Assembly: GCF_901411515.1 (NCBI RefSeq)
Contig: NZ_CABDUX010000002.1
Location: 558,001-622,000, forward strand
DNA length: 64,000 nt
Direction: 5' to 3'
From: Raoultibacter phocaeensis
Lineage (GTDB): Bacteria; Actinomycetota; Coriobacteriia; Coriobacteriales; Eggerthellaceae
Positions 4,621-39,534 of the stretch are shown here, one piece after another. The notes beneath the pieces are model-generated. The model was not told the origin of the DNA, searched no databases, and was given only the letters and a program-made list of their open reading frames with translations. Both the position numbers and the translations under genes were made by a program. Numbering within the stretch: position 1 is the stretch's first letter; each line of letters begins with the position of its first letter.

Positions 4621-4625
4621 GGGCT

Positions 4626-15300: not shown

Positions 15301-16697
15301 AGGGGGCCGACGGGTTCTCGGGCGGCTGCTCGTGGGCCATCGACGACGCGGGCGCCCTGCGCGTCTGGCCGACCGACGGCGTGTCGGGCGAGCTCGCGTC
15401 GTTCGCCTCCGTGACGTCCGTGCCCTGGCACCTCCGCAGGGCCGAGGTGACCTCCGCCTCGGTCCTTCCCGGCGTGCGCGCGGGTGCTGGCCTGGTCGGC
15501 ATGTTCCTTAACTGCTCAGAACTGGCCTACCTCGACCTCTCGGGCCTCGACGCCTCGCAGGCTACGGACCTGTCTACCATGTTCCGCAACTGCAGATCCC
15601 TTACCTCCCTCGACCTGACGCCCCTCGCCGCCTCTCGGGCTGGGAACTTGTCCAACATGTTCAACGGCTGCTCCGAGCTGGCCTCCCTCGACCTGACGCC
15701 CCTTGGCAACTCTCAGGCGACGAACCTGGCCAGCATGTTCCAGGGCTGCTCCAAGCTGGCCTCACTCGACCTGACGCCCCTCGACGCCTCGCAGGCGTTG
15801 TACCTGACCGAGATGTTCCTACGCTGCTCCAAACTGACCTCCCTGAAGCTCCCCGACGGCTTCGCCTCGGCCGCCACGTCCGTGAACGCCATGTTCTCAG
15901 GCTGCAACTCCCTCAAAACCATCCCCCCGAACCTCTCGTTCGAGAACCTCGCCTCGATCCCGCAGGGCTGCTTCTCCTACGCGGGCTCAACCCCGCCGCT
16001 TTCGACGCGCTACGAGGGCGACGACCCCAAGCTCAAATCCTACAACTGGGCGGCGGACAAACGCACGCTCGACGTCGAGCACGTCGTGTCCTTCGATGCG
16101 GGCGGGGGATCGCCCGAGCCCGCCGGCCAGTCCGTCTGGACGGGCGATCTCGCGACCGAGCCCGAGGCTCCGAAGAGGGCGGGCTACACGTTCGCGGGCT
16201 GGTGTTCGGACGCGGCGCTTGCCTCGCCCTACGACTTCTCGTCTCCGGTAACGTCCGATCTCACCCTCTACGCCAAGTGGACGCTCGTGATATCGGGCAC
16301 GGTGCCGCTCAACGCGACCTTCTCGGTGGAATCGTCTGGTTCCGTTGCCGAGGTTCCCTGCGAGATTACCTCGACGTCGGCGGGCCCGCTCAAAGTGGTG
16401 TCGGTGGTGTGCGCCGAGGAGGCGGGGGCGGCGGAGGTGTTCCCCGATGCGGCCGAGCGCGCGCAGATCGCCGTAACGCTCAAACCCGGGGCGGCGAGCG
16501 CGGTGCAGCTTGCGCTTGGCGGCACCTTGCAGGAAGGCGGGCTTTCCGGATTCGCCATCGAAGCGAACGGGAAGCTGCCGCTTGCGCTGGGACTCTCCCT
16601 TCCGAAGGGCATCCGCATCGAGCCCACCGGCACCGACGCCGATCCCGATGCGACGAAGGCCTTCGCGAAGCTCGTCTACACCGTCGCACCTGCCTAA
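12324..16697 (+). CDS. Main part of the BspA/DUF285 leucine-rich-repeat surface protein (out of frame with its start)
   Basis: Reading resumes after the poly-G tract; the first usable start codon of its own would be a poor TTG at 12417, so it is best seen as the downstream part of the gene beginning at 11770. Order of parts: LRR_5 repeats (LPIASVIIPSSVSTIESGAF and similar), a bacterial Ig-like segment, three blocks of DUF285/BspA repeats (units like LSSMFQGCSKLASLDLTPLA), each introduced by a C-(T/S)-W-(V/A)-I-D-(S/D)-A-G module, an InlB/Flg_new repeat (RAGYTFAGWCSD...LTLYAKW), and a C-terminal beta domain ending KLVYTVAPA. No sortase motif is seen at the end. Likely a cell-surface or matrix adhesin. 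Confidence 0.82.
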   Translation, partial: GVYFPAPEVTSVSIPATVCEIDTESLSALDGLQSVHVDSKSEGYASYDGMIFGKDLSELLFVPAGKAGTANLPNEAAAVSAAVFSRAGALSAIAVGEGNAAFSSVDGVLYTKDKRLLVCGPAAGGDAVALPVETREIGESAFAQADPASIVAPGFVETIDSSAFSDKTKANACVALAAGDSYDERKAVWEAAGFSRFAEPARPGETVTPDGEEEPAASGFAFTLLDDYTLAVSWQGSEAPDADIEIPSSARVGGVSYRVTAVAPDGFAGLPIASVIIPSSVSTIESGAFSACGSLASVTLPEGLAKIGERAFEGTAVTNLVLPTSLVSVGERAFADCASLARVVALSAVLSVAASALAGCSGVSVYCPYEESGAYPWNPGIVAGGNHVMPYGLSLAGEPLVVETDEAADLFEGGMCEAPEGAELAYAYAASFMSVEGGTVTGKRAGAADVTAVLTLDGIELARASRTVEVTGAPAREDAPEVSVPHLSLDVALAPASADEPAPAAADIASGEWGRCTWVIDSAGKLTISPTPGQSGELASFAFNGSAPWFPHVTEVTSVSIIPGVRAGSSLKGAFVNCASLTSVDLSGLDASRATDLSSMFQGCSKLASLDLTPLAASRAENLSGMFSGCLSLTTLDLTPFAASRPTNLSCMFQSCSKLASFELPDGFASAATYVDNMFYGCNSLSDIPSNLSFGSAASIPANCFKVTSGAPLRTVYKGSDAKIHAYDWAAAGRAFEGADGFSGGCSWAIDDAGVLRIWPTDGASGELTSFADYNVVPWYSRKAEVTSASVAPGVRAGSSLKGMFYQCSSLTSIDLSGLDTSQATNLSQMFYQCSSLASLDLTPLAASRATNLSGMFRDCYSLASLDLTPLSASRATNLSQMFQSCYSLASLDLTPLSASRATNLSQVFYQCSSLVSLDLPDGFASAATNLLYAFSDCNSLSVIPSNLSFGSAASIPVGCFRVTAGEPLRTVYKGSDAKIHAYDWAAAGRTFEGADGFSGGCSWAIDDAGALRVWPTDGVSGELASFASVTSVPWHLRRAEVTSASVLPGVRAGAGLVGMFLNCSELAYLDLSGLDASQATDLSTMFRNCRSLTSLDLTPLAASRAGNLSNMFNGCSELASLDLTPLGNSQATNLASMFQGCSKLASLDLTPLDASQALYLTEMFLRCSKLTSLKLPDGFASAATSVNAMFSGCNSLKTIPPNLSFENLASIPQGCFSYAGSTPPLSTRYEGDDPKLKSYNWAADKRTLDVEHVVSFDAGGGSPEPAGQSVWTGDLATEPEAPKRAGYTFAGWCSDAALASPYDFSSPVTSDLTLYAKWTLVISGTVPLNATFSVESSGSVAEVPCEITSTSAGPLKVVSVVCAEEAGAAEVFPDAAERAQIAVTLKPGAASAVQLALGGTLQEGGLSGFAIEANGKLPLALGLSLPKGIRIEPTGTDADPDATKAFAKLVYTVAPA
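13854..16080 (+). repeat. Three DUF285 repeat blocks with near-identical DNA
   Basis: Blocks begin near 13854, 14545 and 15319. Blocks 2 and 3 are preceded by nearly identical DNA: the stretch from 14463 to about 14583 recurs from 15231 with only a few mismatches, including exact runs of about 42 and 58 bp. The offset is 768 bp, i.e. 256 codons, so recombination between the copies would add or remove a whole block in frame. Inside each block LRR units recur every 23 to 24 codons. Confidence 0.8.
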
Positions 16698-18869: not shown

Positions 18870-21635
18870 ATGAGAAGGCATACGAACACATGGTTGGCGG
18901 CGCTTCTGTGCGCATGCCTGCTCATATCCTCGGTTCCCGCAACCGCGCTGGGTGCGGCGCGGCCCTCGGTGGGGCCGCACGGGCGCGTAGGCGAAAACGG
19001 CGTGGCCTACACGAGCGTCAACGTGCTTGCCGTCAAAGAGCTCTCGGTCCGGGCGAGCGAGAGCTTCGCGGCCACGGTAACCCAGATCCAGCAAGCACCC
19101 GACTTGTATATGCTCAAAGCGGCCGTGTCGGGCCACTCGGGCGAGCTTTCCTATGCGTGGACCCGCACGGTGGACGGCGAACCCGACGACGCGTTTTCCT
19201 GGGACGGCGCCGAAGTGCGGCTCGCCGATTGGATCGGCGATGGAGCGGGGGGCATCGAGGACGGACGCGAGTACGTCTACACGGTCACGGCGACCGATTC
19301 GTCGGGGGCGAGCGCGAGCGCGGCGGTCAGCGTGGCGACCCTCGACGGCTACGGGCGGGCGACCCGCACCGAGAACGGCGTCACCGTCGAGGGCGTGCTT
19401 GCCGACGAGGCGGTGTTCGCCGCAGGCGAGCTGGACGGCTCGGCGCCCGCCTACGACCACCTGCTCGCCTCGGCCGAGGGCAAACCGGTCGCAGGCGTTT
19501 GGTGCACGGAGCTCTCGGGCACGCGCGGCAGCCGGCCCGCCCATGTGGGCCCCTTGGACGTCACGCTGCCTGCAGCCGGGCTCGGCGAAGGCTCCGAGGT
19601 CGTCGTCATCGGGCTGGATGCCCGGGGTGCCGTCGCTAAGTATCCGGGCACGGTGGAAGGCGGCTGCGTGACCGTATCGGTTCCCGCGCTCGGCGCGTTC
19701 GCCGTCGCCGCCTGCGGTTCGGGCGGTTCGAGCTACACGATCGAGGCGAGCGCGGGCGAGGGCGGCCAGATCACCCCGTGTGAGACGGCATCGTACGCCG
19801 AAGGCGCGGCTCCCCGCTACGTCGTCCTGCCCGATTCGGGGTACGTGGTCGATCAGGTGCTCGTAGACGGTGCGCCCGCTGCGCTTTCCGGAAACGCGTA
19901 CGTATTCGCACCGCTCGATGCAAACCATGCCATCCGCGCGACCTTCGCAGCCGTCGAACCCGATGCATCGACCGGGCACCGCCTTTCCGCATCCGTGAGC
20001 GGCGGGCACGGACGCGTATCCGTGGCGGGCGGCGAGGCGGCTGCCACAGTAGAGGCCGAGCTTTCGCACGGCGCGTCCGCGCTGGTCGAGTTTCTGCCCG
20101 ACGACGGCTACGCGGTGGACGCCCTCACCGTGAACGGGGTGCCCCATGCGGTCATCGGCGATTCGTTCCTCGTCTCGTGCGCGACCGAAGACGTCGCGGT
20201 GCAGGTGACGTTCAAGCCGGGTATCGCGCCGCCGCTACCCGTGCACGCCGTCGAGGCGTCGGTCACAGGCGCAGGCGGAAGCGTCTCGCCCGAGCGCGCC
20301 CTGGTTCCCCACGGTCGGTCGGAATCCTTCACCTTCGTGCCCGACGAGGGCTACGAGCTCGAGGCGGTCGCCCTCAACGGCGACGACGTGACGCATCGGG
20401 TGCAGCAGGCCGACGGGGCAACGCTCTTGATCGAGAACGTCGTGAAAAGCCACGCGATCGAAGCTTCGTTCAAGGAGAAGGACGATCCCGGCCCCGCTCC
20501 CGACGAGCCGTTCGTCAACGTAGACGTGAAGGTGGAGGTGAGCTCGGAAGGCGGCGAGGGCGGAAGCGTGTCGCCGTCGGGCGCCCTGGTGATGGCGCAC
20601 GGATCGTCCCAGACCTTCTATATCTACCCCGAGGAGGGCTATGACCTCGACCGGGTGACCGTGAACGGCGAGCTTGTCGAAGCCCGACCCCTCGCGCGGG
20701 CGACGCTGTTTTCGGCGCGCAGCACGGCGGGCGCGTACGGCGGATACGTGGTGTCGGTCGAATCCGTGACGACGGATACGGTCATCGAGGTTTCCTTCAG
20801 GAAGCTCGGCGAGGGCGAACCTCAGCCTCCTGCCGTCGCGGTCTGGGAGGTGGCTTCGTCGGCTTCGGGGGGAGGCACCGTCTCTCCTGCGGGGGTTTCG
20901 CGCGTGCCCCAGGGCGAATCGCTTTTCTTGACGCTCAAACCCGACGAGGGGCACCGCTTGGCATCCCTTATCGTGAACGGAACGGATGCAACCGCCGAGG
21001 TGTCCGGAAACGTATTCGCCCTTGCCGATGTGCGGGCCGATACGGCCGTGCACGCGGTGTTCGAGCCCGAGGGCGGTGATCCTGGACCCGGCCCAGGGCC
21101 TGGCCCCGACCCCGGTCCAGGGCCCGATCCAGGGCCTGATCCAGGGCCTGACCCCGACCCCGAAGGCGAGTTCTTCGCCATCGAGGTGGCGGCGGGCCCG
21201 CACGGCACCGTGTCCGACCTTGGCGGCGCCCCGTCGGCAACCATGCAGGTGTCAAAGGGTGCGGACAAGGCGTTCTTCTTCCTGCCCGAGGCGGGCTATG
21301 CGGTCGGCGAGGTGAAGGTGGACGGGCAGCCGGTGGTCGCCGCGCGCAGCTACACGTTCTTGAACGTGCAGGCCGACCATACGCTCGAAGTCACGTTTAA
21401 GGCTCAGGCTGCGCCGGTTCCCGTACATCCCGGCCAGGCTTTCGGGCGGTTCGCCCAGACGGGCGATGCGCCGTTCGCCTTCGCTGCGGCGGGCCTTGCG
21501 GCCCTTGCGGGCGTGGTTGCGCTTATCGGATGGCTCCGTTCGGCTCCGCTTCGTAGGCGTTTTAGCATGAGCCCGGTCTGTGGGGGCAGCAGAGCCGAGA
21601 GGACGGATAAAATCGACGGAAGGGGTAGCCGATGA
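18870..21635 (+). CDS. Large cell-wall adhesin with InlB-like repeats and degenerate sortase signal
   Basis: About 921 residues. N-terminal signal peptide (NTWLAALLCACLLISSVPATALGAA), a PKD/Ig-like part (LSYAWTRTVDGEPDD...YVYTVTATDSSG), then at least five copies of a roughly 75-residue beta repeat with the pattern G-G-x-V/I-x-P ... P-D-x-G-Y-x-V/L-x-x-V-x-V-(D/N)-G ... I-x-A-(T/S)-F, like bacterial InlB B-type repeats, and a (DPGPGP)n linker. The C-terminus has FAQTGD, a hydrophobic helix and RRR, resembling an LPXTG-type anchor with a weak consensus. ATG 18870 follows GAGAGGT; ATG 18843 is an alternative. It overlaps the next gene by four bases. Confidence 0.78.
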   Translation: MRRHTNTWLAALLCACLLISSVPATALGAARPSVGPHGRVGENGVAYTSVNVLAVKELSVRASESFAATVTQIQQAPDLYMLKAAVSGHSGELSYAWTRTVDGEPDDAFSWDGAEVRLADWIGDGAGGIEDGREYVYTVTATDSSGASASAAVSVATLDGYGRATRTENGVTVEGVLADEAVFAAGELDGSAPAYDHLLASAEGKPVAGVWCTELSGTRGSRPAHVGPLDVTLPAAGLGEGSEVVVIGLDARGAVAKYPGTVEGGCVTVSVPALGAFAVAACGSGGSSYTIEASAGEGGQITPCETASYAEGAAPRYVVLPDSGYVVDQVLVDGAPAALSGNAYVFAPLDANHAIRATFAAVEPDASTGHRLSASVSGGHGRVSVAGGEAAATVEAELSHGASALVEFLPDDGYAVDALTVNGVPHAVIGDSFLVSCATEDVAVQVTFKPGIAPPLPVHAVEASVTGAGGSVSPERALVPHGRSESFTFVPDEGYELEAVALNGDDVTHRVQQADGATLLIENVVKSHAIEASFKEKDDPGPAPDEPFVNVDVKVEVSSEGGEGGSVSPSGALVMAHGSSQTFYIYPEEGYDLDRVTVNGELVEARPLARATLFSARSTAGAYGGYVVSVESVTTDTVIEVSFRKLGEGEPQPPAVAVWEVASSASGGGTVSPAGVSRVPQGESLFLTLKPDEGHRLASLIVNGTDATAEVSGNVFALADVRADTAVHAVFEPEGGDPGPGPGPGPDPGPGPDPGPDPGPDPDPEGEFFAIEVAAGPHGTVSDLGGAPSATMQVSKGADKAFFFLPEAGYAVGEVKVDGQPVVAARSYTFLNVQADHTLEVTFKAQAAPVPVHPGQAFGRFAQTGDAPFAFAAAGLAALAGVVALIGWLRSAPLRRRFSMSPVCGGSRAERTDKIDGRGSR

Positions 21636-22021
21636 GCGCGCGGGCGAACAGACGGCGCGCTTCGGCGCTGCGCAGGTCGCCGTCCGGCCGTCGCGTGCCG
21701 CGGCCGACCATGGCCGATGCCTGCGCCCGCTTCGGCAGGGAATCGCTGCGCGTCAGGCAGATCGAGCACTTCGTCGCCGCGGTGGAACTCGGGAGCCTCT
21801 CGGCCGCAGCCGAGGCGGCGGGCATCTCGGTGCAGGGGATGTCCCAGTCGATCGCGGGGCTCGAGGAGGAGGTGGGTGCGCGGCTGCTCGAGCGGGGCCG
21901 CCTCGGGACGTCGCCGACGGCGTTCGGCTGGGAGTGCTACGACCGCGCGAAGGACCTCCTTGCGGAGTTTGACGGTTTCGACGCGTTCGTGCGGAGCCGA
22001 AGCGGCCCGGACGATGCCTGA
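21632..22021 (+). CDS. Stand-alone LysR-type HTH domain protein
   Basis: A 129-residue protein. After a basic 38-residue N-terminus comes a LysR winged-helix domain: LRVRQIEHFVAAVELGSLSAAAEAAGISVQGMSQSIAGLEEEVGARLLERG. The usual substrate-binding domain of about 200 residues is absent; the protein ends soon after the linker helix. ATG 21632 overlaps the adhesin stop (ATGA) and the 3' end overlaps the EAL gene by eight bases, so all three genes are coupled. It may act as a ligand-independent DNA-binding regulator of the surface operon. A shorter start at 21710 is possible. Confidence 0.7.
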   Translation: MSARANRRRASALRRSPSGRRVPRPTMADACARFGRESLRVRQIEHFVAAVELGSLSAAAEAAGISVQGMSQSIAGLEEEVGARLLERGRLGTSPTAFGWECYDRAKDLLAEFDGFDAFVRSRSGPDDA

Positions 22022-23588
22022 GGTCGGCTGGCTGCCCGCCTTGTGCCTTATCGCGGGAGCCGTCGCTTTGGCGCTTGCGCTGGCGGCGATCATCCTGGCT
22101 CTGCTGAGGCGAATCCGGGTTCTCGCCGAGCTCGCCTACGTCGATCAGGTGACGGGCGGTTGCACGCAGGCTCGCTTTGAGCGAATGGCGGCCGAGCGGC
22201 TTTCCGGGGCCCTTGCGAACGAATACATGCTCGTGACCCTGAATCTCGAGGGCTTCAAGCTGGTGAACGACGCGTTCGGGAGCGAGCGGGGCGATGCCGT
22301 GCTTCGCCACGTGTACCGCACCGTCGAGCGGTGGATGGACGAGGGCGATCTGCTCTGCCGCACGTTCGCCGACCATTTCATCCTGCTCGTCGAGACGAAG
22401 CCGCGCGCAGAAATCGTCAGGCGGCTCCAGGGGCTCTCGACCGAGCTCAACCGTTTCAACGAGGGGGCGGCTCGCGCGTACCGCCTCGTTTTGAGCGCGG
22501 GGGCCTACCCGATCGACGATCCGTCGCTTCCGCTCGTGCAGATCCGCGACCGATCGAACGTGGCGCGCCTGAGCGCCGCCGATTTGGAATCGGGGAGCCT
22601 GTTCTCGTGCGGGTTCTACTCCGATGCCGACAGGCTGCGGCTTTTGCGCGAGAAGCGGCTGGAGAACCGGACGGGTGATTTGGTGGAGAGCGGCGAGCTC
22701 GCCGTGTTCCTGCAGCCCAAGCTCGACTTGCGCGTGGGTGGGGTAGCCGGGGCTGAGGCGCTCGTTCGGTGGCGCGACCCCGAGCGCGGCCTCGTCATGC
22801 CCGACGGGTTCGTGCCGTTCTACGAGAGGAATGGCTACATCGTGAAGATCGACCTGTTCGTGTTCGAATCCGCGTGCGCGCTTCTGCGGAAGTGGATCGG
22901 CGCCGGGGTTGAACCTCTGCCGATCTCCTTCAACCTCTCCCGCGCCCACCTTTCGGATCCCCTGTTTCTCGATGCCTTCGAGCGGGTGAGGGAGCGCTAC
23001 GGCGTGCCGGCGCATCTGCTCGATTTCGAGCTCACCGAGACCTACGCGGCGAGCGACCCCGGCGTCGTGGCCGCCGCTTTCGACGCCATCCGCGCGGCGG
23101 GCTACCGCGTTTCCGTCGACGACTTCGGCAGCGGGTGCTCGTCGCTCAACATGCTGAAGGACATGCGGGCCGACACCCTCAAGCTCGACCGCGAGTTTCT
23201 GTACGCCGCAAGAGCAGCGAGCCGAGGGAAGCCTGCAGCAGGCGATGCGGCCCCCGACTCGTCCCGCGCCAGTGTCGAGGATCCCGGCCCCGAAGCTGCT
23301 TCTGGGAGCGGGCCCGGCTCGTCGCAGCTCGCCCGGCTCGCACCGGGCGAGGCATGTCTGCCGCCCAGCGGGCCCGCCGACTTACCCTGCGCCGTCGTCG
23401 TGGTCGAATCGGTGGTGGCCATGGCCAAGCGCCTCGGCATGCAGGTCGTCTGCGAAGGCGTGGAGTCCGACTCCCAGCTTGAAGCCCTCGCCGCCATGGG
23501 CTGCGACCTCGCCCAAGGTTTCGCCATCGCCCCGGCGCTGCCTCTCGACGAGTTCGAGCGCATGGCGTTCGGACGGGTTGTGGAGTAG
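22014..23588 (+). CDS. GGDEF-EAL protein, probable c-di-GMP phosphodiesterase
   Basis: 524 residues: one N-terminal transmembrane helix (LPALCLIAGAVALALALAAIILALL), a GGDEF domain and an EAL domain. The GGDEF signature is lost (FADHF at about 118-122), so no cyclase activity is expected. The EAL domain keeps EALVRW (about 248), an asparagine in ISFNLSRAH, the glutamate in ELTETYA, DDFGSG, KLDREF and EGVES, the usual metal and catalytic set. A low-complexity insertion of about 60 residues (roughly 398-458) separates KLDREFLY from VVESVVAMAKRLGM. Coupled to the LysR-HTH gene by an 8-base overlap. Likely lowers c-di-GMP in relation to surface adhesion. Confidence 0.85.
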   Translation: MPEVGWLPALCLIAGAVALALALAAIILALLRRIRVLAELAYVDQVTGGCTQARFERMAAERLSGALANEYMLVTLNLEGFKLVNDAFGSERGDAVLRHVYRTVERWMDEGDLLCRTFADHFILLVETKPRAEIVRRLQGLSTELNRFNEGAARAYRLVLSAGAYPIDDPSLPLVQIRDRSNVARLSAADLESGSLFSCGFYSDADRLRLLREKRLENRTGDLVESGELAVFLQPKLDLRVGGVAGAEALVRWRDPERGLVMPDGFVPFYERNGYIVKIDLFVFESACALLRKWIGAGVEPLPISFNLSRAHLSDPLFLDAFERVRERYGVPAHLLDFELTETYAASDPGVVAAAFDAIRAAGYRVSVDDFGSGCSSLNMLKDMRADTLKLDREFLYAARAASRGKPAAGDAAPDSSRASVEDPGPEAASGSGPGSSQLARLAPGEACLPPSGPADLPCAVVVVESVVAMAKRLGMQVVCEGVESDSQLEALAAMGCDLAQGFAIAPALPLDEFERMAFGRVVE

Positions 23589-23618: not shown

Positions 23619-23722
23619 TTATTCGGAATCCGCGCCACGATCTCCCGGCAGCGCATGCTCGCCGCGGCCCGAAAGGCGGGTGAAGCGGTTGACTTCCTGC
23701 GCTCGGAGGTGTTGGGGCGGCT
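23619..23722 (-). pseudogene. Remnant of the gadC-like 3' end
   Basis: Read on the minus strand this fragment encodes PPQHLRAQEVNRFTRLSG, then RGEHALPGDRGADSE and a stop at 23619. The first part is the same as the C-terminal tail of the GadC-like antiporter whose gene lies at 27292-28872, where the tail instead ends PGEAATPLNVSEPETKSPA. No start or upstream coding sequence is attached. It lies 30 bases from the convergent EAL-gene stop, as expected if the antiporter gene originally ended here. Confidence 0.7.
23641..23722. repeat. 82-bp direct repeat, left copy
   Basis: Matches 27344-27425 over 82 bases with one difference (GTTGAC here, GTTAAC there). The copies are 3703 bp apart in the same orientation and bracket the flavoprotein, iron-sulfur protein and tetR genes. 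Confidence 0.9.
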
Positions 23723-23920
23723 TGGGGTGAAATAAGGCGTCGATTTTCTCGGTGACGATGGCTGCCCCTTGTAACCGTTCGTCGGACAAAACGAAAAAAT
23801 GTCACTTTATCTCAAACGAACTGAAAGTTCCGTCCTTTGAAAGCTTCTTCCGCGCTTGGAACAATGAAGCGGTCGGCATGGTGCCGGCATGCGCACAGGT
23901 GCGTACGGGAGGAGGAGACC

Positions 23921-25786
23921 ATGAAAGAAGACAACGCTTTACGATCTGCAAAGTCGGCAATGTCTCGTCGGACGTTTCTCGGGGGAAGTGCCGTAGCGTT
24001 CGGGACGCTTATGCTTTCGGGTACGCTCGGTATGACCGGCTGCTCGTCAGCGAACGAGCACGAGGCAAAAGGGGATGTCGCCTCGACTCAAGCGGGCGAT
24101 CAGGCGACCTTCGAGATCTACGATACCGAAATACTGATCATAGGGGGTGGGCTGGCTGGTTCCCATGCAGCGCTTCAGGCCTATAAGCAGGGTAAAGATG
24201 TGACCGTTGTAGAAAAGGGTCCGTTCCATTTCGGTGGTGCTTGCGGGTACAACTGGTGCAACTGGATAAACTTCATTCAAACCGATACGCCGTGGGATCA
24301 GTCGGAAGATTTCGTGCTGAACGAACTGACGAACAAGAAGATTGCAAAAGCAACCCACGAAGCGTTCAGCGTAGATGAGCGAAATCTGCTTCTGAGGTAC
24401 GCCCAAGAAGGAAACAACCTGTTCGTTCGCGATGAAGAGGGAAATTTCGCTCCAGGGCTCGACATGTCCGACTATCCGTTGTTCGGGACGTTCAACGGCT
24501 TCCCCCGATACTTCACGGATTCCGTTGAACGCACAGGGGCTCGCATCTTCGACCATACGATGATCACCGATGTCATCATCGAGGGCGGCTCATGCATAGG
24601 GGCGATAGGCCTTCATGTGCCAACCGGCGTGGTAAGGGTATTCAGGGCGAAGGCGACGGTTTCTTGTACCGGTGCGAGTTCGTGGATATATGGATGGAAT
24701 ACAGTCGCTCCGACATCGATCAACTCGCCTGACAACACAGGTGACGTCGATGCAGCGGCGTATCGGAGGGGCGCTTTGCTTCAGGATTCGGAATTCTTCC
24801 AATTCGACCTCATCAGCATGTACCCTACCGGACTTGCAGCAACGTTCGTGGGCGGAATCGGCGCCGACAACCTCTGCTGCGAGTACATCTGCGATGCGAA
24901 CGACAATTATTTCTTCCGTGGCATGGATTATTCGACCCTCGATCGCATTACGTTCACGCGTACGATCGCGAAAGCCATACACGATGGCGGGGGATCCCCG
25001 AGCGGCGGGGTGTACGTCGATTTTTCCAACCCCGAGGCATTTGCGGCAATGGGCGAGGTGTATCGTCGAAACGTCGGCCTCTGGAAAGACGTGTTCGGCA
25101 TCGACGTTGCTTCGACCAAGCTCGAGTGCGCACTCGAAGCCTACGAGCATGGAAGCAACCCGCGCGTCGATGAAAACCTTATGGTCGAAGGTATGCCGGG
25201 GCTGTTCTGCTCGCGCGGTGGCGGTGTGTACGGTGCACAAGGGGGTTCGTCGGTCAACGTTGCCTACCGAGACGGGTCGTATGCCATGATGAAGGCGATC
25301 GAATACGCCGAAGGCGAAGGAGAAGCGCGTCCGGCGGCGTTTTCGTTCGATCTCATCGGGGAGGAAATCAACCGCCTCCACGAGCTGCGTGTTCGACAAA
25401 ACGGGGGAAAGAGGCCCCAGGAGATTACCCGCATGATCCAGAAGGCCGCGTATGCGGCATGCCAGCCGACGCGCGAGACCGATGCCATGAAGCAAGCCGT
25501 GGCCGAGCTCGAGCGCATACGAGTCGAAGACATGCCGAGTATGACGCTTGCCGATCATTCGCTAACCTATAACAGCGATTGGAAGGCGGCCATCGAGGCT
25601 TACAACGTGCTCGATATAGCCGAGGCTAGCTCAAAAGCCGCGCTTATGAGGGAAGAGAGCCGTGGACACAGCTACCGCCCAGAGTATCCAGAAGAAAACC
25701 CTGCAGAATGGACGTGCAACATCGTAGCCGAAAACGTGAACGGCGAGATGAAACTTGCAACCGTTCCTGTCGTAGAGCTTGACTAG
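23921..25786 (+). CDS. Tat-exported FAD-dependent reductase (FrdA/AprA-like flavoprotein)
   Basis: 621 residues. Tat signal SRRTFLGGSAVAFGTLMLSG ending in a lipobox-like MTGC, so it is exported folded and perhaps lipid-anchored. The FAD site is EILIIGGGLAGSHAALQAYKQGKDVTVVEKG, followed by a fumarate reductase/succinate dehydrogenase flavoprotein fold with GASSWIYGWN and a C-terminal helical region (LHELRVRQNGGKRPQE) as in FrdA or AprA proteins. The FrdB-like protein encoded 34 bases downstream is its likely partner. Such reductases in Eggerthellaceae use various organic acceptors; the substrate here is unknown. GGAGGAG precedes the ATG. Confidence 0.85.
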   Translation: MKEDNALRSAKSAMSRRTFLGGSAVAFGTLMLSGTLGMTGCSSANEHEAKGDVASTQAGDQATFEIYDTEILIIGGGLAGSHAALQAYKQGKDVTVVEKGPFHFGGACGYNWCNWINFIQTDTPWDQSEDFVLNELTNKKIAKATHEAFSVDERNLLLRYAQEGNNLFVRDEEGNFAPGLDMSDYPLFGTFNGFPRYFTDSVERTGARIFDHTMITDVIIEGGSCIGAIGLHVPTGVVRVFRAKATVSCTGASSWIYGWNTVAPTSINSPDNTGDVDAAAYRRGALLQDSEFFQFDLISMYPTGLAATFVGGIGADNLCCEYICDANDNYFFRGMDYSTLDRITFTRTIAKAIHDGGGSPSGGVYVDFSNPEAFAAMGEVYRRNVGLWKDVFGIDVASTKLECALEAYEHGSNPRVDENLMVEGMPGLFCSRGGGVYGAQGGSSVNVAYRDGSYAMMKAIEYAEGEGEARPAAFSFDLIGEEINRLHELRVRQNGGKRPQEITRMIQKAAYAACQPTRETDAMKQAVAELERIRVEDMPSMTLADHSLTYNSDWKAAIEAYNVLDIAEASSKAALMREESRGHSYRPEYPEENPAEWTCNIVAENVNGEMKLATVPVVELD

Positions 25787-25820
25787 TCCGCCTTATCCAA
25801 GGTGAAGGAGGCGTTTTACT

Positions 25821-26525
25821 ATGAAGATCAAGGTCCAAAAGTACAATCCGTCCGTGGATGCAGAGCCATCGTTTTCCGAATACGACATCGACTATTGGGA
25901 GCACATGACGCTTTTGGAGGCGTTAGTGCTGATAAACGATACGATCGAGCCTATTGCATTCGACTATAGCTGCAGAGGCCGCGTGTGCGGTAGATGCGCG
26001 ATGGCGCTTGATGCCACACCGTGCCTCGCCTGCGTCACGCTTGTAGAAGAAAACGGCAAGAACGTGGTGACTCCGCTTCCCGGTTTTCCCGTCATCCGCG
26101 ACCTTATCGTCGATAAAACGAAGATTACCGATAAAGTGAGCAGAATACTTGCCCGGCAACGTGCGTTCGACCTTTCGCTTGACGAAGTTAAGGCGCCGAT
26201 CGATCCCGAGGTGTACGAGAAGCTCGAGCCGCTTGAGTACTGCGCCCGCTGCGGCGTATGCATGGCGGCATGTCCGGTCGTGCAGGCGGACGGTGCGAAA
26301 TCCTATATCGGCCCAACGGGGATGGTAGCAATCGCCAATCGCTTCTACGATCCGTACGATCAGGGGGATCGTGTGGTCGAAGCCGTGCAGAACGGATTGT
26401 GGAACTGCACCCAATGTGGCACGTGCGACGTAGTGTGCAAAGCGCTTGAGATCGACCATCAGTCGGTTTGGAAGGATCTGCGCGCCGCCGCAGAGGCAGC
26501 GGGGTTGAAGCCCGCGAACGCATAG
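25821..26525 (+). CDS. FrdB/SdhB-like iron-sulfur subunit
   Basis: 234 residues with a plant-type 2Fe-2S site (SCRGRVCGRCAMALDATPC, about 53-71) and two C-terminal 4Fe-4S/3Fe-4S type motifs (CARCGVCMAACPV and CTQCGTCDVVCKALEID). The order is that of fumarate reductase or succinate dehydrogenase iron-sulfur subunits, with an N-terminal ferredoxin fold. Strong Shine-Dalgarno (AAGGAGG) and a 34-base gap put it in an operon with the flavoprotein. It lacks a signal peptide although the flavoprotein has a Tat signal, so either it is co-exported as a folded partner or it works inside. No membrane anchor subunit follows. Confidence 0.87.
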   Translation: MKIKVQKYNPSVDAEPSFSEYDIDYWEHMTLLEALVLINDTIEPIAFDYSCRGRVCGRCAMALDATPCLACVTLVEENGKNVVTPLPGFPVIRDLIVDKTKITDKVSRILARQRAFDLSLDEVKAPIDPEVYEKLEPLEYCARCGVCMAACPVVQADGAKSYIGPTGMVAIANRFYDPYDQGDRVVEAVQNGLWNCTQCGTCDVVCKALEIDHQSVWKDLRAAAEAAGLKPANA

Positions 26526-26535
26526 GGCCTTATTT

Positions 26536-26573
26536 AGCCGTCCTGCATCTAAGCGTGGCGACGCGGGACGGCT
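26536..26573 (+). terminator. Stem-loop after the iron-sulfur gene
   Basis: Arms 26536-26546 and 26563-26573 pair over 11 positions with one G-T pair, starting 11 bases after the stop. The downstream sequence is only moderately T-rich, so it may be a weak terminator or a processing site between the reductase genes and tetR. Confidence 0.45.
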
Positions 26574-26703
26574 TACTTCGTTCGGACGGATGCTCTCAGA
26601 TGAAAGCGAGCCTGCAGGTTAGCATACCATTCGTGCGCACGAACGCGTAAGGGAGTATACTTTTTCATGAGGGGTTTCCGTATGGGATGCGGATGGGGGA
26701 TAT

Positions 26704-27282
26704 ATGAAAAACGATGCTTGGGAGCCGCAGGGCCTCTTCGATAGCGAGGACGTTCAAATCAAGCTGCGCATCATGCATGCGGTCGATGGTTCGCTCGATC
26801 AGATAACCGTGGCGGATCTGTGCGAAAAGACGGGTATTTCCCGACAGACCTTCTATCGGAATTTCGACAGCAAGTACAGTTTGCATTGGTGGTGGCCGAC
26901 GCATATCCACAAGTTCTACCTTGTTGAAGTGGGCAGAACCATCGATTGGGAGACGGGCTATTTTCACCATATTCGGTTACTCTCGCTTGAAAAAGACTTC
27001 TTCGAGGTTGCAACGCAGTATACGCTCAACTTCCCAACCGAGCGCAGCATCATGCCGCATTACCGCAAATGCGCCCTCATCGAAACCCTGCGGGATTACC
27101 GCGACATCGAAATCGATGACGACCTCATGTTCTGCGTAAACACATGGGTCAAAACTGAAACCGAGATACTGACCGAGTGGTATCGGCTCGGCACGACGCC
27201 GTCTCCGAGGGAAGCTGCAGCCAAGATCGCAGGCGTTATTCCCAAGCGGCTCTACGATGCTCTTTCTATGGAAGCGGACTAG
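26704..27282 (+). CDS. TetR/AcrR-family regulator
   Basis: 192 residues. The N-terminal HTH is KLRIMHAVDGSLDQITVADLCEKTGISRQTFYRNFDSKYSL, with the TetR-typical T-x-x-x-(L/I)-x-x-x-x-(G)-(I/V)-S-x-x-T-F-Y-x-x-F pattern. The C-terminal ligand domain is aromatic-rich (HWWWPTHIHKFY). It lies 178 bases behind the flavoprotein/iron-sulfur pair on the same strand and within the same direct-repeat-bracketed segment, so it probably regulates that pair. Its stop is ten bases from the convergent antiporter stop. Confidence 0.85.
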   Translation: MKNDAWEPQGLFDSEDVQIKLRIMHAVDGSLDQITVADLCEKTGISRQTFYRNFDSKYSLHWWWPTHIHKFYLVEVGRTIDWETGYFHHIRLLSLEKDFFEVATQYTLNFPTERSIMPHYRKCALIETLRDYRDIEIDDDLMFCVNTWVKTETEILTEWYRLGTTPSPREAAAKIAGVIPKRLYDALSMEAD

Positions 27283-27291
27283 AGACGAGCA

Positions 27292-28872
27292 TCACGCGGG
27301 GCTTTTAGTTTCAGGTTCGGACACATTAAGCGGAGTCGCGGCCTCTCCCGGCAGCGCATGCTCGCCGCGGCCCGAAAGGCGGGTGAAGCGGTTAACTTCC
27401 TGCGCTCGGAGGTGTTGGGGCGGCTCGCTCGGCTCGCGGCGATGCTTCTTTCCGTACAGCTCGTAGATGAGAAACGGGATGAGCACGGTCACGGCGGAGC
27501 CGATCGCAAGGAGCGCTTCGTAGGCGGGCTGCTGCGATGCGGATATCACGATGGGCGGGAAAAACGCGATGACGAGCGCAAAAAGCGAGCTCGCGAACCC
27601 GGCGACCGCGAACACCCATTTGCCAACTGCTTTGCCCGGTACGTGGTAGCCGCGCTTGATCTCAGGGTGCAGAATGAGCTTGATGTAGGAGATGAACAGC
27701 ATCAAATACGCCACCAGGTAGATCACGGCCGTGAGCGATACGGCGGCGAGGTAGGAGAGGTTGTTGCCTCCGCCTGCGAGCGTGAGCACGACCGCCCATA
27801 TGCTCACGACGATGCCCTGCACGACGATGATGGGCACGGGCGCACCGTGCTTGTTGAGGCTTTTGAAGCGCTCGGGGATGAGCCCCTGCTGGGCGACCGC
27901 GTACAGGGCCCGCGAGGGGCCGACCACCCACGAGCCCACCTCCCCGATCACGCCGAGCACGAGCATGAGGCAGAGCACCTTCACCGCCCAGCCGAGTTCG
28001 GGGCCGATGCCGAGCACGAGCGTCTCGTAGGTTTGCACCATGCCGCCGCTCATGGAAAGCTGTTCGAGCGGCACGACGCCCGCAACGGCGAAGCCGCCGA
28101 TGGCGTTGAGCACCGTCGCGACGATGACGAGGACGATCATCGCGATCGGGTAGTTGCGCGAGGGGTTCTTGAGCTCGTTGATGTGGCTCGCGCTCGCCTC
28201 GGTGCCCATGTTCGCGAACAGGAAGCTCACGAATACGACGAGCGTGGAGGCGTGGGCGAAATCGGGCAGCAGGTTCGGGTGCGCAAGGTCGAGCTCGAGC
28301 GGTTTTCCCGAAGCGAGGTAGAGTGCGCTTAGCACGATGAGCAGAAGCGTCGGCACGAGAACGCCGACGATGAAGCCGATGCGCGCGAACGCGGCGGTCT
28401 TCTTGGTTCCGCCGAGCTGCAAGAGCGTGACCGCCCAGAACACGACGAGCACGCCTATGGTTTTGACGAGCGGATCGTTGTCGAGCGCGGGGAAATCGAG
28501 CAGGTAGGAAAGCGCGCTCAGACCGAAGTAAATGATTATGATGAAGCAGATGGTGATCTGGAACCATTGGAAGAACACGGCGGCGAACCCAAACCGCGGC
28601 CCGAGCATGCGCCCGACCCATGCGAAGATGCCGCCGTTTTCCCAGCCTTTGACGGTAGCCATCTCGGCCGAGCAGAGGGCGACGGGGAGAAACCAGAGAA
28701 AACCGCTCGCCAACAGGAAAAACGGTATTTGCATGCCTGCGACTGCGAAGGTGGGGTACTCGTGTACCGACATGACCATGGCGGCGGTGATGGAAAGGAA
28801 GCCTGCGAGCGTGAGCGCAGGTTTGGCGGCGGCACGTGCGCGGGATCGGGTGCTTTCGGGCGATGCTTTCAT
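27292..28872 (-). CDS. GadC-like amino-acid antiporter (APC superfamily) with altered C-terminal tail
   Basis: 526 residues with about twelve transmembrane helices. Strong similarity by eye to glutamate:GABA antiporter GadC: ITAAMVMSVHEYPTFAVAG, CSAEMATVKGWENGGIFAWV, TLLQLGGTKKTAAFARIGF, VSFLFANMGTEASASHINEL and IGEVGSWVVGPSRALYAVAQ all match family segments. It probably exchanges an amino acid for its decarboxylation product, but no decarboxylase gene is near. ATG 28872 has GAGG five bases upstream. In E. coli GadC the C-terminal tail forms a pH-dependent plug; here the tail contains the 82-bp repeat and ends in 16 residues that differ from the remnant copy at 23619. Confidence 0.88.
   Translation of the reverse strand: MKASPESTRSRARAAAKPALTLAGFLSITAAMVMSVHEYPTFAVAGMQIPFFLLASGFLWFLPVALCSAEMATVKGWENGGIFAWVGRMLGPRFGFAAVFFQWFQITICFIIIIYFGLSALSYLLDFPALDNDPLVKTIGVLVVFWAVTLLQLGGTKKTAAFARIGFIVGVLVPTLLLIVLSALYLASGKPLELDLAHPNLLPDFAHASTLVVFVSFLFANMGTEASASHINELKNPSRNYPIAMIVLVIVATVLNAIGGFAVAGVVPLEQLSMSGGMVQTYETLVLGIGPELGWAVKVLCLMLVLGVIGEVGSWVVGPSRALYAVAQQGLIPERFKSLNKHGAPVPIIVVQGIVVSIWAVVLTLAGGGNNLSYLAAVSLTAVIYLVAYLMLFISYIKLILHPEIKRGYHVPGKAVGKWVFAVAGFASSLFALVIAFFPPIVISASQQPAYEALLAIGSAVTVLIPFLIYELYGKKHRREPSEPPQHLRAQEVNRFTRLSGRGEHALPGEAATPLNVSEPETKSPA
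27344..27425. repeat. 82-bp direct repeat, right copy
   Basis: Lies inside the 3' end of the GadC-like gene and matches 23641-23722 with one mismatch. Bases on both outer sides differ immediately, so the repeat limits are sharp. Confidence 0.9.
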
Positions 28873-29070
28873 GTATCCTCGCTTGATTGGATGGTATCGA
28901 TAGCGTAGCGCGCAGAGGGCTTCGGTGGCGGCAATCGTCATGCAAGCGTAGCCGATGGGATACGATTTCGATCCTTTTCCGCAGCTTTCCGTTGCGCTTG
29001 TTGCCCTGATGCCTATAATCGGGAGCGAGCGGTGCCGATGCGCCGCCTGCGGCTGTAAGCCGCATACATA

Positions 29071-29173
29071 GCAGGGGAGCTTGCAGGAAGCGCGTTGAGC
29101 GCTGCGGCAGGCTGAGAGGAAGCGCGATCCCGCTTCGACCCTTTGAACCTGATGGTTAATGCCAGCGAAGGGA
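29071..29173 (+). promoter_or_regulatory. TPP (THI-box) riboswitch upstream of thiC
   Basis: The conserved parts appear in order: GGGGAGC (from 29074), GGCTGAGA (from about 29112), ACCCTTTGAACCTGAT (to about 29154) and TAATGCCAGCGAAGGGA (to 29173). The closing helix 3' strand AAGGGA overlaps the Shine-Dalgarno of thiC, whose ATG is at 29179, so thiamine pyrophosphate binding should hide the ribosome site. A small GCGGCT/AGCCGC hairpin (29049-29063) precedes it. Confidence 0.93.
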
Positions 29174-29178
29174 GTGCC

Positions 29179-30471
29179 ATGACGCAGATTACTGCTGCAC
29201 GTGACGGAACCGTCACACCTCAGATGAGAATCGTCGCCGAAAAAGAGGGCCTCGAGGCCGAAACGATACGCGAAGGCGTGGCCGCGGGGCGCATCGCCAT
29301 TCCCGCAAACGTCAACCACACCGCGCTTTCGCCCGAGGGCGTGGGCGGCGGGCTTCGGACCAAGGTGAACGTGAACCTCGGCATTTCGGGCGATATGCAC
29401 GACGAGGAAGAGGAGTTCTCCAAGGTGGCCGTCGCGCTCGAACTGGGCGCCGAGGGCATCATGGATCTGTCGAACCACGGCAAGACGCGCGAATTTCGCA
29501 CCAAGCTCATCGAGCGGTCGAGCGCGATGGTGGGCACCGTGCCGATGTACGATGCGATCGGGTACCTCGAAAAGCCGCTCGTGGACATCACGGTCGAAGA
29601 TTTTCTCGAGGTCATCCGCGTGCATGCCGAAGACGGCGTCGATTTCGCAACCATCCATGCCGGCATGAACCGGCGCGTCATCGACTCGTTTCGCGAAACG
29701 GGACGGCTTACCAACATCGTGAGCCGCGGCGGTTCGCTCATCTTCGCCTGGATGGAGGCGACCGGCAACGAGAACCCGTTTTACGAGCACTACGACGAAG
29801 TGCTCGCCATCTGCCGCGAATACGACGTGACGATCAGCCTCGGCGACGCGATGCGGCCGGGAAGCACCTATGATGCATCCGACGCGGCCCAAATAGCCGA
29901 GCTCATTGAAATCGGCACGCTCAACCGGCGTGCGTGGGATGCGGGCGTGCAGGTGATGGTGGAGGGGCCGGGCCACATGGCGCTCGACGAGATCGCCGCG
30001 AACATGAAGCTCGAGAAGCGTTTGTGCCACAACGCGCCGTTTTACGTGCTCGGCCCGCTCGTGACCGACATCGCTCCGGGCTACGATCACATCACGGCGG
30101 CCATTGGAGGCGCGGTGGCGGCGGCATCGGGTGCGGATTTCCTCTGCTACGTGACGCCTGCCGAGCACTTGCGCCTGCCGGATGTGAACGACGTGCGCGA
30201 AGGGCTCGTGGCTACCAAGATCGCAGCTCATGCGGCCGACATCGCGAAGGGCGTGCGCGGCGCACGCGACATCGACAACCGCATGAGCGATGCGCGCCGC
30301 CGCATCGATTGGGAGGGCATGTTCGACTGCGCAATCGATCCGGTGCGTGCGCGGAAGGTGTTCGAGAGCGCGCCTCCCGCGACGGAGGGCACCTGCACGA
30401 TGTGCGGGAAGATGTGCGCCATGCGCACGGTGAACACCATCATGGAAGGCTTAGTGGTTTCGCTGGACTGA
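29179..30471 (+). CDS. thiC: Phosphomethylpyrimidine synthase ThiC
   Basis: 430 residues. Radical-SAM-type enzyme that converts aminoimidazole ribotide to the thiamine pyrimidine HMP-P. Seen: [34 protein letters not shown]-like [33 protein letters not shown], and the C-terminal 4Fe-4S motif [11 protein letters not shown] (C-x2-C-x4-C when counted to the third cysteine). Length fits the short bacterial form. The start follows directly on the TPP riboswitch; the in-frame ATG at 29152 lies inside the riboswitch and is rejected. First gene of the thi cluster. Confidence 0.97.
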
Positions 30472-35183: not shown

Positions 35184-36245
35184 TTACGAGGGAAGTTCGA
35201 AGCGGTACTCGTCGCCGCAGATCGTCTGCTTGATCTTCCCGTCGCATACGAGGTACACCAAATGCGCCATCGTCTCGGCCATCGAGAAGTACTTCTGGTC
35301 GAGGGGCCAGCGGCACCAGTCGGGGTACTTCCATTGCGCGTTTTGCGAGATGGAGATGATGTCGTGGTGGCCCTCGGCGACGAGTTCGTAGATTTCCTCG
35401 AGGCGCTTTTCGTGATGGTCCTTCAAGTATAAAACGCGTTCGTGCAAGCCGGTGAAGGGGTTTCCGTGTGCGGGGAGCACGAGCTTAACGTCGTAGCGGT
35501 TCATCTTGCCGAGGCTTTCCATAAACTCTTCGAGCGCGTTGTGGGTGGCGAACCACGACGAGATGGCGGGCGTGATGCGTTCGAGCACGTGATCGCCGAT
35601 GATCATCGTCTTCGTAGCAGGCTCGTACAGGCAGATGTGCCAATTGTCGTGGCCGGGCGTTTCGATGACCTCGAACTCGTAGCCGCCGGCAAAGATGGTA
35701 TCGCCCTCTTCGACGTAGGTGACGAACGGGCGGTGCTTCAAAGGCAGTAGTTCGGCATGAAGCCTGAGGCGCGGTACGCCTTTTTCGAAGGAGAGCCCCT
35801 CGTCTTGGGGGCGCGCCGCCTGGCGTACGAGCGGCTCAAACACCTTCGCCTCCATCATCTGGAGGTTCTCTACTTCCTGGAACGAATGGAGGTTCGCGTA
35901 CAGGCACATCCCATCGCGGTAAATACGGTCGAGGTTGCCGGTATGGTCGGGATGGGAATGCGTGAGCACGATCTTCACCGAATCCCAGCCGCGCCCGAGT
36001 TTGGCGAGCGCTGCGTTGAGCGCCGCTTCGCACGCCGGATGGTCGAACCCGACGTCGACGATCGTGGTCGTCTCGTCGTCGAGGATGAAGTACGAGTTCA
36101 GCTCGCGCAGCGGGTTGTCGGGAAGCGGTACGCGCACCTGGTAGATGTGCGGCACCACTTCGGTGATGAAACCGTCGTAGTCGAACTCGTATGTAGGAGA
36201 AGCCTTCGTATCGATGCTCGAGGCCCTGTTGCCTATACTGTCCAT
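35184..36245 (-). CDS. Metallo-beta-lactamase-fold hydrolase
   Basis: 353 residues. Metal-binding THSHPDHTGNLDRIY (about residue 94), further histidines in ETPGHDNWHICLY, the aspartate in IIGDHVLERITP and LVLPAHGNPF, all as in glyoxalase-II/RNase-Z-like MBL proteins. The C-terminal helical domain (ERVLYLKDHHEKRLEEIYEL) resembles that of thioesterase/flavin-type LACTB2 relatives. Cytoplasmic. The AGAAGG site precedes ATG 36245. It is on the same strand as the amidohydrolase downstream and may form an operon with it. Substrate unknown. Confidence 0.85.
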   Translation of the reverse strand: MDSIGNRASSIDTKASPTYEFDYDGFITEVVPHIYQVRVPLPDNPLRELNSYFILDDETTTIVDVGFDHPACEAALNAALAKLGRGWDSVKIVLTHSHPDHTGNLDRIYRDGMCLYANLHSFQEVENLQMMEAKVFEPLVRQAARPQDEGLSFEKGVPRLRLHAELLPLKHRPFVTYVEEGDTIFAGGYEFEVIETPGHDNWHICLYEPATKTMIIGDHVLERITPAISSWFATHNALEEFMESLGKMNRYDVKLVLPAHGNPFTGLHERVLYLKDHHEKRLEEIYELVAEGHHDIISISQNAQWKYPDWCRWPLDQKYFSMAETMAHLVYLVCDGKIKQTICGDEYRFELPS

Positions 36246-36392
36246 TGTCTGCCTTCTGTTCGGTGTCCTGCGTTCATTGTACGACGGGGCGGGTGCGTAT
36301 GCAGGTTACGACTGGGCAGCGAGTTGAAAGTCTCCGTAAAACGATGGTTCGAAAGTGCGGCTTGCAATGCCGACAGGCAGGGTTTTGAGCAT

Positions 36393-37397
36393 TTACCCAG
36401 CGCTCAGGCTATGGAGAATGCTTTCGGGAATATCGAAAGGCGTAACCGCCCCTTGTTTCGCTGCCGCTTCGTTCTTGAAGTCACGAATCAGAGCGCGCTT
36501 GATATGCGCAATGGCACCTGTGGGCTCGAATACGTACTCCGCGAGCGCATCCAAAAACAGGGGAAGCGGCGAGTTCCTTCCTGCAATTTTCATTCTGGTA
36601 AACCCGCGAGAGCACAGGTAAGAAATACGAGAGTTGGAAATAAACAGATTGTTACCGAGACGGTTTTCGATGTTCGAAGCGGTTTCCAGATGATAGCAGG
36701 GCTGCCCCGATCCTCTGCAGCCCCCATCGTTCCATTCTTCGAGCTTTTTAATATGATTGTAGACGTTTTGGCAGTTCGGGACGCAGAATTGATTAACAAT
36801 TATTTCAACCTTTTCGCGAACGTCGTACAGGTTTTCTAGGCATTCGTCGTTCAGCGCGTATTCGCTTCTTACAACGATCTCGTCGTAGAGCTCGAGGAGA
36901 CTTCTGTAATAGGCGGTCTCCTGTTCGCAGTCTTCGTGCATAGTGCTCATGGCCTTGTTCAGCGACGCCACGGTTTTGATGCTGGGTCGGGTTTGCTTTA
37001 TATGGTTTGCCAGAACATCATCGAACAAGATGACCTCGCCATCATATTCTTCAACGAAATCCAACAGCAGGTTGCAATACGTGTCGCGGTAGTAGCCCTC
37101 ATCGACACTAAGTCGGGATAGGGTCAAGGCACACCGGACACCGAAGTGCGCGTATGCAGAAAAATATGTATCAAGTTGTTCTTCGTTGAGGCGGGCTTTT
37201 ACAGCAGAGGGCCGTCCGCCCGACCAGGCGCAATAGGGAGCTCCGTATACGATGTCGAACGGCCGATCGAAGCCTAAAGTCGAGCACAGCTCCAAGAGCT
37301 TCAGCGCACCCCAGTCGTTGCAGCAGAATGCTGGAATTTTCCAAGAAGCTCGAACCGGATGATTACGGTATACGTCAATGTCGTTTCGAACGGTCAT
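36393..37397 (-). CDS. Uncharacterised protein, U32-peptidase-like TIM barrel features
   Basis: 334 residues. Two features recall the peptidase U32/UbiU family: VEIIVNQFCVPNCQNVYNHI (cysteines in a strand-turn after the barrel) and the late MKIAGR. More cysteines follow (GGCRGSGQPC, SYLC), enough for an iron-sulfur cluster. Global similarity is uncertain. The start at 37397 (MTVRNDIDVYR) has AGGAG about eleven bases upstream; the frame is open further upstream but overlaps the hairpin between the genes. It lies 95 bases downstream of the Tat flavoprotein and is probably in one operon with it. Confidence 0.5.
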   Translation of the reverse strand: MTVRNDIDVYRNHPVRASWKIPAFCCNDWGALKLLELCSTLGFDRPFDIVYGAPYCAWSGGRPSAVKARLNEEQLDTYFSAYAHFGVRCALTLSRLSVDEGYYRDTYCNLLLDFVEEYDGEVILFDDVLANHIKQTRPSIKTVASLNKAMSTMHEDCEQETAYYRSLLELYDEIVVRSEYALNDECLENLYDVREKVEIIVNQFCVPNCQNVYNHIKKLEEWNDGGCRGSGQPCYHLETASNIENRLGNNLFISNSRISYLCSRGFTRMKIAGRNSPLPLFLDALAEYVFEPTGAIAHIKRALIRDFKNEAAAKQGAVTPFDIPESILHSLSAG

Positions 37398-37455
37398 AGC
37401 AGCAGCAACTCCTCGTGATAGCGTGCGTTTCGCAGCAGGGGTACATGCATGGTAG

Positions 37456-37486
37456 GCAACCGGCCGATTGAAAATCGGCCGGTTGC
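37456..37486. promoter_or_regulatory. Perfect 13-bp hairpin between flavoprotein and U32-like gene
   Basis: Arms 37456-37468 (GCAACCGGCCGAT) and 37474-37486 (ATCGGCCGGTTGC) around a 5-base loop, starting 6 bases from the flavoprotein stop. No T-run follows on the minus strand, so it may be a processing or stability element more than a full terminator. Confidence 0.6.
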
Positions 37487-37492
37487 GAAACC

Positions 37493-39241: not shown

Positions 39242-39534
39242 GGTTCCCCCTCAGGTAGTGATGCTCAAAGATTTGAACATCTCTTTTCGTTCGCAGGCGT
39301 GTGCCGTGCGGGTTCAGAATACCTGCTTATCATTTGATGGGAAAAACGATGATTCTTGATAGGTTCATGCGAAAAATCCATCGAGGGTATCGTGATTTTT
39401 GGCAGAATGAATCGCGAACTACGATAGCCGATCACGGTTGGTGGGCGATAGGTTTTTGAAGGCGAGTCGGAATGCGGAGCGCTCTTACGGCGCAAATAAG
39501 CGATCCGTTACACAGGAGCTGGTCATCGTAGAAA

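Follow-up and report, generated by a model that had tools for sequence, protein, structure and literature searches.

Antiporter-end repeats around a flavoprotein cassette in Raoultibacter phocaeensis and the possible merger of two versions of one locus

Insertion with long target duplication has been reported for Helicobacter and for restriction-modification genes (PMC3031569, PMC1643837, PMC2654758), and the mechanism is left open in the accessible parts of these papers. In Escherichia coli that received linearised DNA with partial homology, 56 of 60 clones carried a duplication of the flank, 109-950 bp long in the 14 that were sequenced; the available text ascribes such duplications to partly degraded and religated molecules that entered as circles by a single crossover (PMC3240628). 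Here we analyzed a related arrangement in a 64,000-nucleotide stretch of the R. phocaeensis genome, called the window below (C2:558001-622000, in contig NZ_CABDUX010000002.1; the genome has 3,861,034 bases in 2 contigs). A unit of 3.7 kb, coding for a flavoprotein, an iron-sulfur (FeS) protein and a TetR-type regulator, is bracketed there by two 82-bp direct copies of the end of an adjacent antiporter gene. The pattern is best explained as a variant of insertion with long target duplication. With a probability of about 0.5, it arose by recombination between alternative versions of one locus, which were added side by side so that their shared flank was duplicated.

The antiporter-end repeats and the thiN-thiC interval

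The two copies of the repeat, at 23641-23722 and 27344-27425 (3703 bases from start to start), are identical at 81 of 82 positions, and the single mismatch lies at an inner position. A dispersed repeat was ruled out, as a search of the whole genome returned exactly these two copies and no third. A tRNA attachment site was also rejected: the tRNA-Val called by ARAGORN at 21059-21151 falls inside a repetitive surface-protein gene and has no Rfam support. The 82-bp match is far beyond chance, because comparison at the same stringency of 1.99 Mb of DNA with itself (1.51 Mb from R. phocaeensis and 0.47 Mb from G001, the sole congener compared) gave no inverted pair.

The repeat is native antiporter sequence, corresponding roughly to residues 479-505. 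The alignment with TIGR00910 reaches residue 502 of 522 and so runs through most of the repeat, which bore out the statement of the first-pass annotation that the repeats represent the 3' end of the antiporter gene. The minus-strand reading likewise confirmed what had been said there about the two gene ends. The right copy stands in frame within the intact antiporter gene (27292..28860, minus strand, start about 28860) and, joined to the antiporter body, reads on through 16 other codons, AATPLNVSEPETKSPA, to a stop; these last codons come from cassette-side DNA. The left copy keeps what looks like the original end. It belongs to an antiporter remnant on the minus strand (23619..23722), made up of the repeat, the last codons and the stop, which runs on to PGDRGADSE and whose stop codon begins 30 bases past the stop of a convergent EAL gene. 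The junction at 23722/23723 is one of two non-homologous joints, and the spacer that follows it (23723..23764) has no match in G001. An antiporter ending in PGDRGADSE without the cassette, as expected of a strain with a single repeat, was not found among the genomes compared, which were one per species. A scan of genome contigs with the antiporter returned no strain of the same species, only four distant relatives at 44-47%.

The cassette proper occupies 23723-27343, and its alignment with G001 extends from near 23765 to 27272; the two cassettes match over 3.3 kb at 78%. In G001, whose assembly is 93% complete, the interval reads thiN, an unrelated 1.1-kb stretch, the cassette, 116 bp and thiC, with no antiporter, no EAL gene, no repeats and no N; the gene calls made by script are heuristic. 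Left of the G001 cassette lies a short gene with no counterpart in R. phocaeensis, followed by thiN, and in G055 thiN directly adjoins thiC. In R. phocaeensis 37.4 kb of DNA with no syntenic counterpart in G001 separate thiN from the cassette to its right. New in the lineage of the window are about 37 kb on the left, comprising an apparent sulfite-reduction cluster, surface proteins and the EAL gene, and the antiporter on the right. Farther out, synteny between the two genomes is kept on both sides; on the right it resumes at 29038, with thiC and its leader (29038..30471, plus strand), and extends past 55 kb.

Because the cassette is present in the same interval in G001, without the antiporter or the EAL gene, it appears to be a shared property of the thiN-thiC interval, in which the flanking DNA differs on both sides. 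The cassette was probably there first, before the repeats. The cassettes of R. phocaeensis and G001 also came out as sisters in a concatenated tree with a distant outgroup (97% bootstrap). Given the G001 interval, neither a recent arrival of the cassette at this place nor its earlier description as a newcomer is supported. Since only 1 of 82 positions distinguishes the repeat copies, against about 15-25% of coding DNA between the two species, the duplication would be much younger than the shared position of the cassette, unless gene conversion has kept the copies alike.

Repeat-bracketed loci elsewhere in the genome

Direct and inverted repeat pairs of at least 95% identity, 35-300 bp in length and spaced by 0.4-20 kb, were sought in 1.51 Mb of R. 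phocaeensis DNA. The genome has 90 matches to PF00890; 88 were used (two short ones, apparent pieces of the same genes, were omitted), and 86 lie outside the window. The reductase sample consisted of 71 stretches around these 86 reductase-type genes, the window and two further stretches, altogether 1.11 Mb with overlaps, and 0.40 Mb of reductase-free DNA from the same genome served as the control. Near reductases four direct pairs were detected, the control had two, and inverted pairs were absent from both. Five of the six direct pairs, 43-82 bp long and at least 95% identical, bracket no recombinase as judged by reading the genes between the repeats. The sixth, at C2:1052586 (L220:12586 to L221:2892), was counted apart: a 52-bp repeat resembling a tRNA end, the tRNA being read by eye, encloses a 10-kb element of apparently ordinary integrative type, which carries an integrase-like gene. 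In 0.47 Mb of G001, one direct pair at C1:132659 adjoins N and was discounted.

Equivalent repeats bracket toxin-antitoxin genes and an ATPase gene, and they are as frequent in the reductase-free control, so that the specificity for respiratory enzymes suggested at first was not upheld. At all five recombinase-less loci the 3' end of a protein gene lies within one copy of the repeat or borders on it, a placement that may reflect the survival of harmless insertions rather than targeting. The sequence and length of the repeat differ from locus to locus, and no common core is present. Nine weaker pairs (75-90% identity) were inspected, several of which lie in paralogous LuxR genes, a tRNA end or protein repeats; an older 61-bp pair (88%) that flanks an ATPase gene following eno, and another of 59 bp (80%) that flanks a reductase gene, may be decayed examples and were left uncounted.

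The DDAH, aspS and eno loci were compared in a set of named genomes. Three of the five recombinase-less loci (the window, L155 and L166) have their bracketed genes in the same position in relatives. At L155:4203-9452, a perfect 51-bp repeat (51/51) encloses 5.2 kb with genes for a Panacea/HTH protein, a flavoprotein of the twin-arginine (TAT) type and a LuxR protein, in the order cbiQ, repeat, the three genes, repeat, eno. The flavoprotein and LuxR genes occupy the same place in six of the eight genomes searched (G054, G055, G063, G067, G069 and G077), and no such repeats accompany them there, apart from one short 23-bp pair in G077. The site is empty in G064 and in G001, and in the latter the two neighbors adjoin across a single repeat copy. 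The reverse is conceivable too: G001 could have lost the genes by recombination between older repeats.

At L166:10317-11511, a 65-bp repeat (64/65) encloses 1.1 kb with a ParE/Phd-like pair between a PIN gene and aspS, giving the order LuxR, PIN, left copy, ParE/Phd-like pair, right copy, aspS. In G001 the same pair follows the LuxR gene directly and the DNA is collinear at 88% through the pair, the right copy and aspS, and in G063, G067 and G069 the PIN gene is joined to aspS over one copy without the pair. Because each half is found separately in relatives, the R. phocaeensis arrangement reads, on these alignments, as the sum of two versions sharing a flank: the right copy is native to one version and the left copy comes from the other.

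At L143:4730-5790, a 61-bp repeat formed by the end of a DDAH-like gene brackets 1.0 kb with a low-GC ParE-like toxin (just below the Pfam cut-off) and its partner; a neighboring reductase gene sits elsewhere in G001. At C2:831763 (L211:11763-13451), where a transporter-like gene has its 3' end, a perfect 43-bp repeat brackets 1.6 kb that hold an AAA/DUF4143 gene.

How the arrangement may have arisen

In the explanation that we favor, the cassette would be the older resident of the thiN-thiC interval, and we infer that the lineage of the window once held two versions of this interval within the species, one with the cassette and one with the new DNA ending in the EAL gene and the convergent antiporter. 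A later recombination would have set the versions side by side instead of swapping them and would have left the antiporter 3' end on both sides of the cassette. In general form, version A (P-flank) would gain a fragment C-flank from version B and become P-flank-C-flank. The most economical route, with no recombinase, would start from a donor fragment made of the cassette and about 82 bp of shared flank, which would close to a circle by end ligation and enter via one RecA crossover in the flank; the flank would then be duplicated, the antiporter frame would stay whole and the cassette would come to lie at its usual locus. Exchange between the two copies would from then on be expected to remove the cassette or to multiply it. 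A second known route to the same product would be homologous pairing on one side combined with illegitimate joining on the other (PMC2884548, PMC5361080). The reading starts from the cassette in the same interval of G001, with neither antiporter nor EAL gene there, from the near-identity of the copies and from the same arrangement at other loci, and it is supported by the occurrence of six direct and no inverted pairs in 1.51 Mb of own DNA, by the sister grouping of the two cassettes and by the E. coli precedent (PMC3240628).

We hold its probability at one half because the donor required for the window is a version with the cassette directly beside the antiporter, and this was seen in no genome compared. 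Several other results weigh against it. G001 has no antiporter, so that neither joint is proved native at this locus, and neither a remnant of the cassette between the antiporter and thiC nor a repeat at the outer joints rose above the shuffles. The toxin-antitoxin pair of L143 was absent at the DDAH loci of all five relatives fetched, and the rule that relatives hold the cargo at the same locus may fail there; the comparison by this rule covers the window, L155, L166 and L143. The laboratory duplications of 109-950 bp were longer, in the accessible account, than the 43-82 bp seen here. Finally, the two lineages could have gained the cassette independently, because the flavoprotein identity between R. 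phocaeensis and G001 (86.5%) is barely above that between R. phocaeensis and G063 (85.8%) and the differences at four-fold sites are mixed, not consistently favoring G001.

A tandem duplication followed by loss would need no second haplotype and no donor. New DNA, with the EAL gene and the antiporter convergent, would have entered left of the cassette, the antiporter-cassette segment would have been duplicated in tandem, and later the second cassette would have disappeared entirely and the first antiporter for the most part, the left 82 bp being a pseudogene remnant. Such a course explains the remnant, the old position of the cassette and the near-identity of the copies, and it agrees with the G001 cassette adjoining thiC. 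It takes, however, two deletions on top of a duplication, the stretch between the antiporter and thiC shows no sign of a second cassette, and L166, with its halves separate in relatives, is left unexplained, so that we regard it as unlikely. We are similarly doubtful of an insertion in the direction proposed by the first-pass annotation, in which a locus without the cassette took up the 3.6-kb unit in its antiporter end, duplicating 82 bp of target, and the G001 position is a second, independent insertion. At this locus alone it asks for the fewest joints, and precedent in Helicobacter is on record, so far as the accessible texts go (PMC3031569, PMC1643837). The occurrence of the cassette at other places in other genera speaks for it as well: the cassette was found at TrkA/MOSC-purB in G054, G077 and G078 and in a FolC neighborhood in G063. 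It nevertheless requires that the cassette arrived twice, independently, in one and the same interval of sister species, whose cassettes are themselves sisters, and none of the seven cassettes in relatives is bracketed by repeats. Altogether, of a cassette captured into the antiporter end, the origin of the repeats, the bracketing, the lack of a recombinase and the other places of the cassette in other genera stand; the newcomer status, the respiratory specificity and the att-like process do not, the last on account of the seven unbracketed cassettes.

Gene ends are usual attachment sites, and a site-specific integrative element with its site in the antiporter 3' end, the integrase lost or acting from elsewhere, would find a parallel in the element at C2:1052586. 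The unit has no recombinase, though, the repeats differ at all five loci with no common core, and relatives keep the cassette without repeats, which makes this course improbable. Least credible of all is an assembly artefact, in which contigs were joined with an unmerged overlap. Direct repeats of overlap length do occur beside gaps, as next to N at C1:132659 of G001, but the window has no N, the copies differ at an inner position and both lie on a 1.9-Mb contig.

The merger of versions may extend to the lineage as a whole, and we put this forward only tentatively: small cassettes (reductases, toxin-antitoxin pairs, ATPases) might be gained and stacked without a recombinase, as circularised fragments of alternative versions that enter by a single RecA crossover in a flank of 43-82 bp. 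If so, versions that normally replace each other would pile up side by side, removable or amplifiable via the repeats. The genome holds dozens of related reductase genes, and such a route could bear on how these sets grow. If a few dozen shared flanking bases suffice for adding one version to another, genomes could gain genes without mobile elements, and the repeats would both date and mark the events. For insertion with long target duplication, the same-locus rule supplies a mechanism that is concrete and open to test. It also carries a warning, as repeats around a gene do not prove that the gene is a newcomer.

Genes of the region and relation to known systems

Only three genes lie between the repeats, and none is a recombinase by domain search, as had been noted from the open reading frames. 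The FrdA/SdhA-like flavoprotein (23921..25786, plus strand; PF00890, PF02910) has a TAT-type signal, SRRTFLGGSA, spotted by eye, and falls under the cut-off of the specific fumarate reductase/succinate dehydrogenase equivalogs (best score 134.6 vs 826). The SdhB/TfrB-like FeS protein (25821..26525, plus strand), with Fer2_3 and Fer4_8 domain matches, passes only the general dhsB subfamily model (154 vs 88). The TetR-type regulator (26704..27282, plus strand; PF00440) shares 87.4% of its amino acids with that of G001. The antiporter scored 647.6 bits over its full length against TIGR00910 (GadC); because this falls just below the curated cut-off of 673.5, the description as GadC-like seems right and GadC is not established. 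It is not close to its homologs in the family, with a best identity of 52% and a strong match in 36 of 138 genomes. The convergent GGDEF-EAL protein gene (21717..23588, plus strand; PF00563, PF00990), whose true start may be downstream of 21717, forms the right end of the lineage-specific left DNA and has no ortholog beside the G001 cassette.

The apparent sulfite-reduction cluster between thiN and the cassette (window 1-10730 and L081:6560-20000) is absent from G001 and includes two proteins with sulfite-reductase domains. Its genes are presumably those for a LysR regulator, DsrMK-like proteins, heme/siroheme functions and DsrAB-like, DsrD-like and DsrKMJOP-like proteins. Its collinearity with G067, G069, G070 and G089, at about 70-79%, ends near window position 10,730, and a DsrA-like protein was found in 18 of 138 family genomes. 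A Dsr pathway for sulfite is known in Coriobacteriia, according to the accessible part of a published report (PMC10591310). The surface-protein genes and the EAL gene come after this cluster; the surface-protein gene at 13867-16072 has many internal repeats of about 71-84% identity. Another region of about 4.6 kb, at 36190-40764, holds a TAT flavoprotein gene and a LysR-like gene with a GC content at third codon positions of about 0.58 and is missing at C1:525070-525245 of G001; no bracketing repeats were found at its ends.

No report of insertion with long target duplication in Eggerthellaceae was found in the literature, and none explaining it by versions of the same locus, as far as the accessible texts extend. 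Judged by those texts, the loci described here resemble the Helicobacter pylori cases (Nobusato et al. 2000) in the small unit, the long target repeats of variable length, the lack of a recombinase and the addiction-type cargo. The window unit is bracketed by 82-bp repeats of its target, the antiporter end, and empty sites with one repeat copy occur at L155 in G001 and at L166, as PIN-repeat-aspS, in G063; for the window itself no such site was found, the sole congener compared having no antiporter. Unlike the described cases, the window unit is not foreign to its locus, being present in the same interval of G001, relatives hold the cargo at the same locus in three of five instances, one joint is native in the sister species at one locus, and reductases are among the cargo. 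With the single crossover of circularised fragments (Amarir-Bouhram et al. 2011, PMC3240628) the loci share a short flank duplicated around the insert and no recombinase, the process being RecA-dependent in the available text of that paper. That route would leave one joint native in the donor and the other a random ligation joint; at L166 the right joint is native, and at the window G001 lacks the antiporter for such a comparison. The laboratory events differ in their setting and in their length of 109-950 bp, against natural, inferred events of 43-82 bp here. A new version of a locus is likewise added beside the old one through one-sided homology in homology-facilitated illegitimate recombination and in the Vibrio type VI secretion clusters with their stacked immunity genes (PMC5361080, PMC2884548); the accessible parts describe no duplication of the flank, and insertion by homology-facilitated illegitimate recombination is usually coupled to deletion. 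With integrative elements that target gene ends, finally, the loci have the gene 3' end as the repeat in common, and they differ from them in having no integrase and no shared core and in that the copies in relatives lack repeats.

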